Origin: Limnohabitans sp.
GTDB taxonomy: Bacteria > Pseudomonadota > Gammaproteobacteria > Burkholderiales > Burkholderiaceae_C
Length of the DNA: 64,000 bases
Reading direction: 5' to 3'
Assembly (NCBI GenBank): GCA_030158125.1
Contig: JAOATL010000013.1
Span: 64,879-128,878 of the forward strand
The notes beneath the pieces are model-generated. The model did not search any database. It was not told where the DNA came from and worked only from the letters and a program-made list of their open reading frames with translations. This document shows positions 11,793 to 52,683 of the stretch, in pieces (the stretch's first letter is position 1; each line of letters begins with the position of its first letter). A program made the translations under genes and the position numbers.

Positions 11793-12194
11793 GTGTGAAG
11801 CTTGCCAGACCGTCGCTGGTGCTAGCTGACATGTGATGGCGCAAGCCATTTCATGGATGCCATGGTTCAAGAATTTCTTGGGCCATGGGCCGAAAGGCCG
11901 CACTGGAGGAACGTCCGGACTGCACAGGACAGCGTAGGAGGTAACACCTCTCCACCGAAAGGCCGCAAGGCACCAAGGTGAGGATTAGAGCAACAGAGAC
12001 GAGCCGATTGAGTTCGGGTGAAACGGGCAATCTCTACGCGCAGCAATACCAAATAGGCACACGTTGATCTGGTTCCGGAGAGTGTGCGGGTAGGTAGCAC
12101 CGAGCCGAGTGGGCAACCCTCGGCCCAGAGTAATGGCGGTCACATTGAAGGCAACTTCAATGCACAGAATCCGGCTTATCGGTAGGCTTCACAC
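11793..12194 (+). ncRNA. rnpB: RNase P RNA component (class A)
   Basis: The catalytic RNA that trims tRNA 5' ends. Seen directly: helix P1, formed by GTGTGAAGC at 11793 and GCTTCACAC at the 3' end; the CR-I block GGAGGAACGTCCGGACT; the central ACAGAGACGAGCCG and GGTGAAACGG blocks; CAATACCAAATAGGCA; and the 3' block CAGAATCCGGCTTATCGG. CR-I usually reads GAGGAAAGTCC; here the third A is a C. The region between P1 and CR-I is long and contains an extra hairpin near 11860-11890, so P3 seems enlarged. A strong terminator follows at 12223-12248. Confidence 0.95.
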
Positions 12195-48403: not shown

Positions 48404-49864
48404 ATGATTTCACGCGAACCTACCCTTGAACGCTTGGCCACGGCCAGGTCTTTGTTGCTCGAGCCCTTTGGCTTGGACGAAACCCATTTGGCCAAGGCCT
48501 TGAGCGCTATCAAAGCGCACAAAGTGGACGACGCCGATTTGTACTTTCAATACACCCGCGCCGAAGGCTGGAGTTTGGAAGAGGGCATTGTCAAAACAGG
48601 CAGCTTCAGCATCGACCAAGGTGTTGGTGTGCGTGCGGTGGCTGGCGAAAAAACGGCCTTTGCCTATTCGGACGACATCTCTGAGGCCTCCTTGATGGAC
48701 GCTGCACAAACTGTGCGCGCCATTGCCCAAGCCAATCAGAATCAAAAAGCCAAAGTGCCCACGCGCAAGATTGCAGGCATGCGCTCGCTCTACCCCTCAC
48801 TCGACCCCATGGGCACCCTCAACAGCACAGACAAAGTGCATTTGCTTGAAAAGGTGGAGCAATTGGCACGCGCCAAAGACCCCCGTGTCGTGCAAGTCAT
48901 GGCCGGTTTGGCCAGTGAATACGATGTGGTCATGGTGGCCCGTGCCGATGGCACCTTGGCTGCCGATGTGCGGCCTTTGGTTCGCTTGTCGGTCACAGTC
49001 ATTGCCGAGCAAAACGGCCGCCGTGAAGTGGGCAGTGGCGGTGGTGGCGGGCGTTTTGGTTTGGCCTATTTTGACGAGGCCATGGTCAATGCTTATGTGG
49101 ACGACGCAGTGCATGCAGCGCTCACCAACTTAGATGCACGTCCCGCACCTGCAGGGGTGATGACGGTGGTGTTGGGTCCAGGTTGGCCAGGTGTACTGTT
49201 GCACGAAGCCATTGGTCACGGTTTGGAGGGCGATTTCAACCGCAAAGGCTCTAGCGCTTTCAGCGGCATGATTGGCAAGCGCGTGGCGGCCAAAGGCGTC
49301 ACGGTGTTGGATGATGGCACCATTGCCGACCGCCGCGGCTCGTTGAATGTGGACGATGAAGGCTGCCCCAGCCAGCGCAATGTGCTGATTGAAGACGGTA
49401 TTTTGAAGGGCTACATCCAAGACGCCATGAATGCCCGCCTGATGGGTGTTCAGCCCACCGGCAATGGTCGACGTGAAAGCTATGCCCACATTCCCATGCC
49501 GCGCATGACCAACACCTACATGTTGGGCGGTGACAAAGCACCCGAAGAAATTGTGGCCAGCATCAAGAAAGGCTTGTACGCCACCAATTTTGGCGGCGGC
49601 CAAGTGGACATCACCAGTGGCAAGTTTGTGTTCTCTGCCAGTGAAGCCTACTGGGTTGAAAACGGCAAGATTCAATACCCTGTGAAGGGTGCCACCTTGG
49701 TGGGCAGCGGCCCAGAATGCTTGAAACAGGTCAGCATGATTGGCAACGACATGCGCCTCGACTCGGGTGTGGGCGTGTGCGGCAAAGAAGGCCAAAGCGT
49801 TCCTGTGGGCGTGGGTCAACCCACGCTGCGCATCGAAGGTTTGACCGTAGGCGGCACCGCTTAA
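48404..49864 (+). CDS. tldD: Metalloprotease TldD
   Basis: TldD works with TldE/PmbA as a zinc protease that matures peptides such as microcin B17 and acts on toxins/antitoxins. The zinc motif is LLHEAIGHGLEGD. The N-terminal part (EEGIVKTGSFSIDQGVGVR) and C-terminal GKIQYPVKGATLVGSG are family blocks. 486 residues. The partner pmbA is not in the window. Confidence 0.95.
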   Translation: MISREPTLERLATARSLLLEPFGLDETHLAKALSAIKAHKVDDADLYFQYTRAEGWSLEEGIVKTGSFSIDQGVGVRAVAGEKTAFAYSDDISEASLMDAAQTVRAIAQANQNQKAKVPTRKIAGMRSLYPSLDPMGTLNSTDKVHLLEKVEQLARAKDPRVVQVMAGLASEYDVVMVARADGTLAADVRPLVRLSVTVIAEQNGRREVGSGGGGGRFGLAYFDEAMVNAYVDDAVHAALTNLDARPAPAGVMTVVLGPGWPGVLLHEAIGHGLEGDFNRKGSSAFSGMIGKRVAAKGVTVLDDGTIADRRGSLNVDDEGCPSQRNVLIEDGILKGYIQDAMNARLMGVQPTGNGRRESYAHIPMPRMTNTYMLGGDKAPEEIVASIKKGLYATNFGGGQVDITSGKFVFSASEAYWVENGKIQYPVKGATLVGSGPECLKQVSMIGNDMRLDSGVGVCGKEGQSVPVGVGQPTLRIEGLTVGGTA

Positions 49865-49926
49865 GGGGTTTGTGCCTACGACACTTGTCAGAAAACTGTC
49901 CAAAACTTGTGCTACATTCTTTTCCC

Positions 49927-50001
49927 ATGACCAAGCGCTTTAGCTTTTTTAGCTTTTATTTTGCATTCTCAGTCCTAGGCGGACGAGAGGCCAGCGCATA
50001 A
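49927..50001 (+). CDS. Phe-rich leader peptide of the aroG attenuator
   Basis: A 24-codon ORF beginning MTKRFSFFSFYFAF. Phe codons occupy positions 5, 7, 8, 10, 12 and 14, with Tyr at 11: six of ten consecutive codons are Phe. It ends 93 bases before aroG and just before a terminator that can alternatively be replaced by an antiterminator. This is the design of pheL-type leader peptides, where ribosome stalling at Phe codons senses charged tRNA-Phe. A TACATT hexamer (49913-49918) ends eight bases before the ATG and there is no Shine-Dalgarno, so the leader mRNA may start at or next to the start codon. Confidence 0.85.
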   Translation: MTKRFSFFSFYFAFSVLGGREASA

Positions 50002-50027
50002 GTCACTGAACCCCTCTACCAACCGCC
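49978..50027 (+). promoter_or_regulatory. Antiterminator stem of the aroG attenuator
   Basis: GGCGG (49978-49982) can pair with CCGCC (50023-50027), and AGAGG (49986-49990) with CCTCT (50013-50017), giving ten pairs around a small internal loop. CCGCC is also the 5' side of the terminator, so the two structures exclude each other. The 5' strand is codons 18-22 of the leader peptide. A ribosome stalled early on Phe codons leaves it free; one that reaches the stop codon (49999) covers it. Confidence 0.75.
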
Positions 50028-50056
50028 GGACTCAACCCCCGGCGGTTTTTTTTTTG
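50021..50056 (+). terminator. Attenuator terminator upstream of aroG
   Basis: AACCGCCGG (50021-50029), a nine-base loop, CCGGCGGTT, then a run of eleven T. It lies between the leader peptide and aroG, 39 bases before the aroG ATG, so it can only act as a regulated terminator of aroG. Confidence 0.92.
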
Positions 50057-50094
50057 CCATTTTTTAATTTTCAACTTGAGAACAGGAGCCCACG

Positions 50095-51219
50095 ATGAAC
50101 AACAAAGCCAAAGCCAATTCGGAGCCACGTTATGCGAACCCCACAGATCGCACAGGCCAGACCGATGACGAACGCATCAAGGACATCACCGTGTTGCCGC
50201 CACCCGAGCATTTAATGCGATTCTTCCCCATCACGGGAACGGCTGTGGAAAGCCTGATTTCACAGACGCGGCGCAAAATCCACAACATCATGGACGGCAA
50301 GGACGATCGCTTGCTGGTGGTCATTGGCCCATGCTCCATTCACGATCCTGCTGCAGCATTGGATTACGCCCGTCGCCTCAAGCCTTTGCGAGACAAATAC
50401 CAAGACACCTTGGAAATTGTGATGCGCGTGTATTTTGAAAAACCCCGCACCACCGTGGGCTGGAAGGGCCTCATCAACGACCCTTACTTGGACGAGAGTT
50501 TTCGCATTGACGAAGGACTGCGAATTGCACGTCAATTGCTGATTGAAATCAATCGCCAAGGTTTGCCAGCAGGCAGCGAGTTCTTGGACGTCATTTCACC
50601 TCAGTACATCGGCGACTTAATCAGCTGGGGGGCCATTGGCGCACGCACCACCGAAAGCCAAGTGCACCGCGAATTGGCTTCGGGTTTGTCAGCACCCATC
50701 GGCTTCAAAAACGGCACCGATGGCAACATCAAAATTGCCACCGATGCCATTCAAGCGGCAGAGCGCGGCCATCACTTTTTGTCGGTGCACAAAAATGGTC
50801 AAGTGGCGATTGTGCAAACACAAGGTAACCCCGATTGCCACGTGATTTTGCGCGGCGGCAAAGCGCCAAACTACGACGAAGCCAGTGTGAACGCGGCTTG
50901 CAAAGACTTGGTGGCTGCCAAACTCAAGCCCACCTTGATGATCGATTGCAGCCATGCCAACAGCAGCAAGCAGCACGAACGCCAGGTGGATGTGACGAAC
51001 GACATTTCTGCGCAAATCAGCAAAGGTTCACGTCAGATTTTTGGTGTGATGGTGGAGAGTCACTTGGAGGGCGGCGCGCAAAAGTTCACGCCAGGCAAAG
51101 ACGACCCCGCCGCTTTGAAGTACGCACAAAGCATCACCGATGCATGCATTGGTTGGCCTGACAGCGAAAAAGTGTTGGAGACTTTGTCCAAGGCGGTGTT
51201 GGCACGCCGACAAAAATAA
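50095..51219 (+). CDS. aroG: 3-deoxy-7-phosphoheptulonate (DAHP) synthase, class I
   Basis: Condenses PEP and erythrose-4-phosphate, the first step to aromatic amino acids. 374 residues, AroA-I-alpha type: VIGPCSIHDPAAALDYA, EKPRTTVGWKGLINDP, SWGAIGARTTESQVHRE, GFKNGTDG, and MIDCSHANSSK (metal ligand His). GAACAGGAG precedes the ATG. The upstream leader reads Phe codons, so expression is probably set by phenylalanine supply; together with the AroG-like sequence this suggests the Phe-sensitive isoenzyme (inference). Confidence 0.95.
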   Translation: MNNKAKANSEPRYANPTDRTGQTDDERIKDITVLPPPEHLMRFFPITGTAVESLISQTRRKIHNIMDGKDDRLLVVIGPCSIHDPAAALDYARRLKPLRDKYQDTLEIVMRVYFEKPRTTVGWKGLINDPYLDESFRIDEGLRIARQLLIEINRQGLPAGSEFLDVISPQYIGDLISWGAIGARTTESQVHRELASGLSAPIGFKNGTDGNIKIATDAIQAAERGHHFLSVHKNGQVAIVQTQGNPDCHVILRGGKAPNYDEASVNAACKDLVAAKLKPTLMIDCSHANSSKQHERQVDVTNDISAQISKGSRQIFGVMVESHLEGGAQKFTPGKDDPAALKYAQSITDACIGWPDSEKVLETLSKAVLARRQK

Positions 51220-51268
51220 ATGCAAAGCAGGCAGGCCTTGTTTGACAAGGTCCTTGCCAATGTGCCCC

Positions 51269-51296
51269 AAAGCGTCTGTTTTCAGGCGCTTTTTTT
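51269..51296. terminator. Terminator between convergent aroG and mpl
   Basis: AAAGCGTCTG-TTTT-CAGGCGCTTT followed by T-rich sequence on the plus strand; the stem has one G-T pair. The last bases reach the mpl stop codon at 51295-51297. Confidence 0.85.
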
Positions 51297-52683
51297 ATGC
51301 AGGTTTCAAGGCCTTCAAGAGCTTGTCGTGAATGCCGCCAAAACCGCCATTGCTCATGCACAGCAAGTGGTCGCCTGGCTGCACCTTTGCCATGACTTGC
51401 TTCACCAATTCATCGATGTTGCCAGCCACTTGGGCTTTGGGGCCCATCTCGGCCAATGCCGCATTGGCATCCCAGTCCAGGCCGCCGCTGTGGCAAAAGG
51501 ACAGGTCGGCTTGGGCCAGGCTCCAAGGCAGCTGCGACTTCATGGTGCCCAGCTTCATGGTGTTGCTGCGTGGCTCGAAGATGGCCAAGATGCGCTGTGT
51601 GCCGACTTGCCTGCGCAGGCCGTCCAGTGTGGTGCGAATGGCTGTGGGGTGGTGCGCAAAGTCATCGTAGACCGTGACGCCCGCCACGCAGCCACGCACT
51701 TCCATGCGGCGCTTCACATTTTGAAAATTTGACAAGGCTGTCGCGGCGGTGGCGGGCGAGACGCCCACGTGTTCGGCGGCTGCCATGGCGGCCAGTGCAT
51801 TGAGTTGGTTGTGGATACCGCCCAATGCCCAATTCACATGGGCCACTTGCTTGCCTTGCTGCAAGACAGCAAAATTGCCCGGTTCGCCTTGCGCTGAAAA
51901 ATCACTGACGGTAGCGCCAAAGCTGCGGACCTCGCTCCAGCAACCTTGTGCCAGCACGCGGGTCAAGCTTTCTTCCAGTCCGTTGACCACCAAGCGGCCT
52001 TGCCCGGGCACTGTGCGCACCAAGTGATGGAACTGGCGTTCAATGGCTTTGAGGTCGTCAAAGATGTCGGCGTGGTCAAATTCCAAATTGTTCAAAATGG
52101 CCGTGCGAGGGCGGTAGTGCACAAATTTGCTGCGCTTGTCGAAGAAGGCGGTGTCGTATTCGTCGGCTTCAATCACAAAGTAGGGGCGAGCGTGGCCAGC
52201 GGCCAATTGGCCCAAGCGGGCAGACACACCAAAGTTCAGGGGCACGCCACCCACCAGGTAACCGGGGGTGAGGCCCGCGGCTTCCAAAATCCAGGCGAGC
52301 ATGGAGGTGGTTGAAGTTTTGCCATGCGTGCCTGCGACGGCCAACACATGACGGCCTTGCAACACATGCTCAGACAGCCACTGTGGGCCGCTGGTGTAGG
52401 CTGCGCCCGACTCGAGGATGGCTTCCATCAGGGGGAATTTGGGCTCGCCCGACGGCAATCGGCTGCGACTGACCACATTGCCAATCACGTACAGATCGGG
52501 CTTGAGCTGCATTTGATCGGCGCCAAAGCCCTCGATCAATTCAATGCCCAAAGCCTCTAACTGATCGCTCATAGGCGGGTAAACACCGGCATCGCAGCCC
52601 GTCACGCGGTGACCCGCCTCTCTTGCCAAAGCGGCCAGGCCTCCCATGAAGGTGCCGCAAATTCCCAATATATGTATGTGCAT
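51295..52683 (-). CDS. mpl: UDP-MurNAc:L-Ala-gamma-D-Glu-meso-DAP ligase (murein recycling)
   Basis: Mpl reattaches recycled tripeptide to UDP-MurNAc. A MurC-like ligase of 462 residues: N-terminal HILGICGTFMGGLAALA, ATP loop VAGTHGKTSTTSML, and VYDDFAHHPTAIRTTL. The GICGTFMGG start distinguishes Mpl from MurC. TAAAAT ends six bases before the ATG (leaderless type). Also in the recycling pathway is ampD, at 63 kb. Confidence 0.95.
   Translation of the reverse strand: MHIHILGICGTFMGGLAALAREAGHRVTGCDAGVYPPMSDQLEALGIELIEGFGADQMQLKPDLYVIGNVVSRSRLPSGEPKFPLMEAILESGAAYTSGPQWLSEHVLQGRHVLAVAGTHGKTSTTSMLAWILEAAGLTPGYLVGGVPLNFGVSARLGQLAAGHARPYFVIEADEYDTAFFDKRSKFVHYRPRTAILNNLEFDHADIFDDLKAIERQFHHLVRTVPGQGRLVVNGLEESLTRVLAQGCWSEVRSFGATVSDFSAQGEPGNFAVLQQGKQVAHVNWALGGIHNQLNALAAMAAAEHVGVSPATAATALSNFQNVKRRMEVRGCVAGVTVYDDFAHHPTAIRTTLDGLRRQVGTQRILAIFEPRSNTMKLGTMKSQLPWSLAQADLSFCHSGGLDWDANAALAEMGPKAQVAGNIDELVKQVMAKVQPGDHLLCMSNGGFGGIHDKLLKALKPA

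Follow-up and report, generated by a model that had tools for sequence, protein, structure and literature searches.

A predicted aromatic attenuator upstream of aroG in Limnohabitans sp. and across many families of one bacterial order

Textbook control of 3-deoxy-7-phosphoheptulonate (DAHP) synthase consists of repression by TyrR and TrpR together with feedback inhibition, and aroG of E. coli is controlled by TyrR. The E. coli attenuators of pheA and pheST turn on a choice between terminator and antiterminator, and those of ilvGMEDA and thrABC carry codons for several amino acids in one leader. Attenuator transcripts of Corynebacterium glutamicum are said, in work of Neshat from 2014, to be leaderless. 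The E. coli part of textbook DAHP synthase control also appears in excerpts of PMC5343134, and excerpts of the review PMC11802643 describe attenuation of pheA and pheST via a leader with Phe codons. The nearest described case to the locus presented here is aroR-aroF of C. glutamicum, in which, according to excerpts of PMC11802643 and PMC4046766, the leader peptide aroR (Phe-Tyr-Phe) lies upstream of the DAHP synthase gene aroF and Phe limitation enhances aroF transcription. In Sinorhizobium meliloti, the trpL leader transcript has the ATG of its ORF at the 5' end (PMC7298713, in excerpt). For the serC-pheA-tyrA supraoperon of Bordetella parapertussis, an attenuator has been predicted in a database (PMC1173090, Table 7, in excerpt).

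The window, a 64-kb (64,000-nucleotide) stretch of Limnohabitans sp. DNA, contains a locus with the hallmarks of such systems: an ORF rich in end-product codons, a terminator before aroG and a competing antiterminator at the end of the ORF. All lie in an intergenic gap (49865–50094) between a tldD frame that ends at 49864 and aroG, both on the + strand. The elements are as follows.

49910..49918, + strand: extended −10-like element TGCTACATT, with TACATT at 49913–49918
49927..50001, + strand: leader ORF MTKRFSFFSFYFAFSVLGGREASA, 24 codons, its aromatic run conserved in relatives
49963..49991, + strand: putative 1:2 (protector) hairpin, GC.TTCTC.GTCC / GGAC.GAGAG.GC, within codons 13–22
49978..49990, + strand: antiterminator 5' strand, GGCGG (49978–49982) and AGAGG (49986–49990), leader codons 18–22
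50013..50027, + strand: antiterminator 3' strand, CCTCT (50013–50017) and CCGCC (50023–50027)
50021..50055, + strand: intrinsic terminator, AACCGCCGG / CCGGCGGTT, 9-nt loop, ten T
50084..50088, + strand: aroG Shine-Dalgarno sequence AGGAG
50095..51219, + strand: aroG, type I DAHP synthase (TIGR00034, PF00793)

Judged from sequence and comparison, positions 49910–50055 very likely constitute a ribosome-mediated transcription attenuator of aroG that responds to charged aromatic tRNAs. As in C. glutamicum aroR, compared here by its working as excerpted, a leader peptide precedes a DAHP synthase gene; that leader, however, is actinobacterial and described with Phe and Tyr only, whereas most leaders here add Trp and belong to one order of Pseudomonadota. 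E. coli pheA and pheST share the Phe-codon leader and the choice between terminator and antiterminator, but there other genes are controlled and Phe alone is sensed. The multi-amino-acid leaders of ilvGMEDA and thrABC are likewise similar in kind, but sense branched-chain amino acids or Thr and Ile. The S. meliloti trpL leader, as excerpted, is leaderless; it senses Trp only and precedes trpE(G), and the start of the aroG leader is here predicted from a promoter-like element. The B. parapertussis supraoperon provides a predicted aromatic attenuator in a betaproteobacterium too, but for another operon and not for the DAHP synthase gene, and the excerpted passages name no leader peptide.

The leader ORF runs from the ATG at 49927 to the TAA at 49999–50001. 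Re-reading of the sequence places Phe at codons 5, 7, 8, 10, 12 and 14 and Tyr at codon 11, in agreement with the initial annotation, which had described 24 codons with six Phe and one Tyr within codons 5–14; the coordinate at which it began the element, 49913, is where the −10-like TACATT starts. ORFs of 12–36 codons that begin with ATG and hold at least 7 Phe, Tyr or Trp codons within 12 codons occur once in the window and on average 0.05 times in its 20 dinucleotide shuffles, and at a looser threshold of at least 6 the numbers are 2 and 0.35. A known Rfam leader or T-box was rejected as an identity for the element: neither scores above the curated threshold in the window, the leader region yields only five sub-threshold sRNA matches (best E 0.67), and ten loci from other families yield no matches. 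The sole Rfam match of the window at gathering score is a bacterial RNase P class A RNA at 11797–12194 on the + strand.

The terminator arms, AACCGCCGG at 50021–50029 and CCGGCGGTT at 50039–50047, fold at −16.4 kcal/mol with a z-score of about −5 (−5.0). The strength claimed for the terminator at the outset stands, but its T count does not, as ten T (50046–50055) rather than eleven follow GGCGG. Both pairings of the alternative stem are located in the sequence: GGCGG (49978–49982) pairs with CCGCC (50023–50027), AGAGG (49986–49990) pairs with CCTCT (50013–50017), and CCGCC is shared between the antiterminator 3' strand and the terminator 5' arm. The stem thus uses the 5' half of the terminator and has its own 5' strand in codons 18–22, as first described. 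The antiterminator segment folds at −22.5 kcal/mol (z −2.7), the putative protector hairpin at −12.2 kcal/mol (z −2.6), and the whole leader, whose folding had been proposed as a check, has a z-score of −3.7. A consensus scan of 49500–51400 that required a −35 hexamer detected no sigma-70 promoter-like site (1.0 expected by chance) and found 4 terminator-like sites where shuffles give 3.5; the aroG terminator stem appears there in a short, shifted register. This simple scan gives no support; the case rests on fold z-scores and conservation.

Conservation was assessed in a first round of 110 loci, comprising the window's own, 80 named by AroG similarity (among them Limnohabitans, Hydrogenophaga, Polaromonas, Acidovorax, Variovorax, Comamonas and Ramlibacter) and 29 drawn from 150 genomes of the window's family, 149 of which gave an AroG match. 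The leader is present in 103, two of which (L036 and L102) are identical. It is absent from six, picked out by visual inspection of the outputs (Polynucleobacter L067, L068, L069 and L071; Cupriavidus L074 and L075), and the remaining locus, L031, lies at a contig edge and cannot be judged. All but one of the 103 leaders have the terminator, and the antiterminator accompanies it in 102 of 102; at some loci the leader's stop codon falls within the antiterminator 5' strand. The exception is L015 (1850–2040), a Ramlibacter MAG that keeps the leader ORF and in which aroG seems to begin right after the 5' arm, reflecting either attenuation that was lost naturally or an error in the assembly. Among the Polynucleobacter loci that lack the leader, L067 and L071 have aroG close behind the tldD frame, and two MAGs labelled Polynucleobacter (L047 and L057) retain the leader. 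Two records named as other groups, L056 (Solimonas) and L081 (a Terrimicrobiaceae MAG), carry the leader along with an AroG 76–79% identical to the window's, through joint transfer or mis-binning in the MAG.

Beyond the family, a sequence model built from 68 leaders (R1) matches 115 of 399 genomes of the order at E ≤ 0.001. All of its best 30 loci have aroG downstream, and 17 of these 30, outside both the first-round family code and the first-round set, have an aromatic leader like the rest. With 80 further places fetched, 98 loci outside the window's family were examined jointly (L114 and L124–L220), and aroG was reached in 94. The leader lies upstream of aroG in 87 of the 98, one of which (L130) repeats first-round locus L078. 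Set aside were L216–L219, weak partial matches for which the sequence retrieved holds no aroG; L213–L215, weak partial matches in family f22; L220, the same place as L124; and L192, L204 and L212, where the model matches beside aroG and the script found no aromatic leader. In L192 and L212, both of family f44, the best ORF is almost devoid of aromatic codons, and these leaders are possibly decayed. Terminator and antiterminator were found in 85 of the 87, the script finding no terminator in L148 and L161. The alignment of relatives suggested initially has thus borne out both the aromatic ORF and the paired segments, within the first-round set and beyond it. Thirteen further family codes have the leader (f3, f4, f8, f10, f11, f12, f13, f20, f23, f30, f32, f40 and f44). 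A second model that includes the antiterminator (R2) has matches in 62 of 250 genomes from the order, with f28 marginal only (E 9e-4), and 7 of 369 genomes of the class, four of them outside the order (three in f63, one in f68). All four lie upstream of an AroG that shares 59–63% identity with the window's, and their best leader ORF contains Phe, Tyr and Trp. By these matches the attenuator is conserved across many families of one bacterial order, in which it is common but patchy, and it is rare outside at the sensitivity used.

The promoter-like element near the ATG is conserved as well, and from its position transcription is predicted to start at about 49924–49927, at or just before the leader ATG. 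Hexamers that match TACATT at 4 or more of 6 positions lie upstream in 102 of the 103 first-round loci, a count that is partly circular because TACATT was derived from the same loci; they stand 6–9 nt before the start codon in 98 and are preceded by TGn in 97. No conserved −35 is visible upstream of the leader in these loci. An SD-like 4-mer precedes the leader in 1 of 103 (3% expected in shuffles); among the 64 loci in which aligned residue 1 of aroG is an ATG, such a 4-mer precedes aroG in 59. Scoring with TATAAT and a bonus for TGn finds the −10 layout in 98 of 101 first-round leaders, 11 of 11 in f23, 8 of 9 in each of f4 and f13, 7 of 9 in f10, 4 of 7 in f44, 1 of 2 in f30 and the single leaders of f12 and f40. 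The layout is scarce in f3 (0/4), f32 (0/6), f8 (0/10), f11 (0/8) and f20 (1/7). In L124, L125 and L128 (f3 and f32), inspection by eye instead places a −10-like box some 40 nt upstream of the ATG, and f11 may use a TTGAAT box, which the rule of the script excluded. The leader transcript thus appears to be leaderless in the first-round set.

The conserved codons define what the leader would sense. In the first 19 codons of the 103 first-round leaders, Phe occurs in 103, Tyr in 100, Trp in 91 and all three in 90. In a cross-family set of 186 non-redundant leaders (L152, which would have been the 187th, departs from the pattern), 120 have Phe, Tyr and Trp, 52 including the window's have Phe and Tyr, 5 have Phe and Trp, and 9 have Phe only. 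Leaders bearing Trp make up 11 of 11 in f23, 4 of 5 in f3, 1 of 10 in f8, 1 of 7 in f44, none in f20 and 0 or 1 of 9 in f4 (counts over the first 17 and 19 codons). The window's leader and its nearest relatives, L002 and L003, lack Trp, with Ala in place of the usual Trp (YFAFS versus YFWFS). The initial annotation had described a Phe attenuator of aroG; conservation upholds the attenuator but not the restriction to Phe, and the codons instead indicate an aromatic leader family (Phe and Tyr, mostly with Trp). In 155 of 186 leaders, 8–12 nt separate the end of the last aromatic codon from the antiterminator core, so a ribosome stalled on that codon would cover part of the core, and one stalled early in the aromatic run would leave it free. 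The last Trp codon lies 12–15 nt before the core in 91 of 125.

The antiterminator is constrained as RNA. It forms in 184 of 186 leaders; with the sequence upstream of the arm shuffled, it forms in 298 of 930 (32%). Read in one frame, GGCGG-N-N-GAGAGG gives the conserved C-terminal GGREA, and in the 103 first-round loci the GGCGG element stands in three frames relative to the ORF (84, 18 and 1), with the leader stop codon ending 9 to 36 nt past the start of the element. These differing frames indicate that the RNA, not the peptide tail, is conserved. The putative 1:2 hairpin is also predicted in 184 of 186 loci, yet the same criterion predicts it in 75% of shuffles, a weak signal barely separated from its control.

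Some of the compensatory changes that the initial annotation had proposed to look for are present in the stems. In L092 and the similar L099, L104 and L105, a core G-C pair is replaced by A-U (GACG/CGTC). Beside the core, the bases on the ORF strand, 5' arm and 3' arm change in concert, reading C-G-C in 89 of 186 leaders and T-A-T in 35; other triplets make up the remaining 62, among them A-G-C in 19, which breaks the ORF-strand pair. In alignment A1 (101 sequences), 88.7% of antiterminator cells and 96.8% of terminator cells are paired, and nine or ten failing rows look out of register by one base, a reading adopted because folding pairs them. Alignment A3 (90 sequences) has 28 antiterminator cells in which both sides change, against 13.1 in shuffles, and 46 terminator cells against 16.3, with 0 of 500 shuffles as high in either case. 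Further pair types on A3 are not above shuffles (the antiterminator count is reached in 214 of 500 shuffles and the terminator count in 500 of 500). A tree-aware test of ORF strand against arm has 6 independent pairs, on average 4.3 changing the same way and 0.2 the opposite way (median p 0.125), and one of the terminator 5' against 3' arm has 5 pairs, 4 changing the same way (p 0.125). This test alone is underpowered and not significant, and with only about six independent pairs it registers few independent co-change events.

The gene downstream scores 546 bits against NCBIfam TIGR00034 (cut-off 173.2), 320.5 bits against Pfam PF00793 and 556.9 against the narrower AroG model NF006723, slightly below its cut-off of 568. 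The genome (3.06 Mb, 24 contigs) has one AroG, the sole DAHP synthase found by the profiles searched. A second enzyme was rejected: the other PF00793 match is KDO-8-P synthase, and the profile search found no type II DAHP synthase. Control of aroG by TyrR was considered as well and no TyrR was found in the genome; a search with PF18024 (HTH_50) for the TyrR HTH family gives a single match below its cut-off, in a protein that resembles sigma-54 regulators and scores 222.5 bits against the NCBIfam TyrR cut-off of 576. At the trpE locus of the same genome (L231), some 214 nt ahead of where the open trpE frame starts, a small ORF, MIQIHSFFALALPAPCGRGAWSWRQPA, contains two Trp codons and has TGTTACACT 8 nt before its ATG; by its layout it is perhaps a second leaderless leader peptide in this genome.

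In the proposed mechanism, RNA polymerase would start at or beside the leader ATG and a ribosome would translate the leader. When charged tRNA-Phe or tRNA-Tyr is scarce (or, in most relatives, tRNA-Trp), the ribosome would stall in codons 5–14, freeing codons 18–22 to pair with the terminator 5' arm, and transcription would continue into aroG. When the aromatic tRNAs are charged, the ribosome would reach the stop codon and cover codons 18–22, so that the terminator forms and transcription ends about 40 nt before aroG. The protector hairpin would keep termination on without translation. Very probably, the leader lets the cell switch on DAHP synthase when aromatic amino acids run short.

The density of the aromatic stretch (of the first 19 codons in the 186 leaders, a median of 7 and a maximum of 9 are aromatic) would also suit an arrest peptide, in which the nascent aromatic chain, possibly together with a free aromatic amino acid that binds as its ligand, and not uncharged tRNA, stalls the ribosome. 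TnaC is an arrest peptide with a free amino acid ligand. Order within the stretch is partly kept in the first-round set, where FYFYFWF occurs in 21 of 101 leaders and FFFYFWF, the next commonest, in 13. Those 101 leaders nevertheless have 40 different aromatic orders and the 186 have 99, and the frame in which the tail beyond the aromatic run is read differs between loci. Across families the order varies freely and within the family it is partly preserved, and content is kept throughout, as expected for sensing tRNA charging. This variation in order and tail frame makes an arrest peptide very unlikely.

A slightly smaller likelihood attaches to the idea that the terminated leader chiefly yields a small RNA or peptide acting elsewhere, with control of aroG secondary. 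The leaderless trpL of S. meliloti does give a trans-acting RNA and peptide (excerpts of PMC7298713). The aroG element, however, stays with its gene in all 30 of the best loci of the order search and in 87 of the 98 loci outside the window's family, four of the other 11 being the weak partial matches whose fetched stretch holds no aroG, and the conserved antiterminator points to a role in cis. An additional trans role beside cis control of aroG is compatible with these observations. T-rich DNA readily yields Phe codons and the simple scan shows no excess of terminator-like sites, as would be so if a Phe-rich stretch merely happened to lie before an unrelated terminator. Such a coincidence or artefact is rejected, and is scarcely credible, given conservation in 103 of 110 loci and 13 further family codes and the mean of 0.05 such ORFs per shuffled window. 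Attenuation of aroG by ribosome position is thus the preferred reading.

The initial annotation knew of no described aroG case in this group, and the literature searched agrees: it holds no betaproteobacterial aroG attenuator and no description of a leader with Phe, Tyr and Trp codons, the search covering openly readable papers without their supplements; supplements or subscription papers may mention such a case. Term searches within the accessible text of PMC2965389, PMC5343134, PMC1173090, PMC4603805, PMC5688073, PMC8079986, PMC4176332 and PMC3110155 gave no betaproteobacterial aroG attenuator. According to excerpts of PMC5688073, a supplementary list for B. cenocepacia holds 82 short 5' UTRs. 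Relative to known attenuators, what is new is probably the aromatic multi-input and the likely leaderless transcript, the mode being classical leader-peptide attenuation.

The broader picture, towards which the evidence tilts somewhat, is of an old DAHP synthase attenuator, present in many families of one order, that reads Phe, Tyr and Trp tRNA charging in a single leader and is leaderless in several families. Entry into the shikimate pathway would then be set at the ribosome by the scarcest end product, with single lineages such as the window's having dropped the Trp input. The charging states of two or three aromatic tRNAs would be combined by one RNA device, placed before the sole DAHP synthase that the genome was found to contain. 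The leaders differ naturally in whether they have Trp codons and whether a 5' UTR precedes them; this gives a series for testing multi-input attenuation, and the same series makes direct tests of initiation on leaderless leader mRNAs possible.
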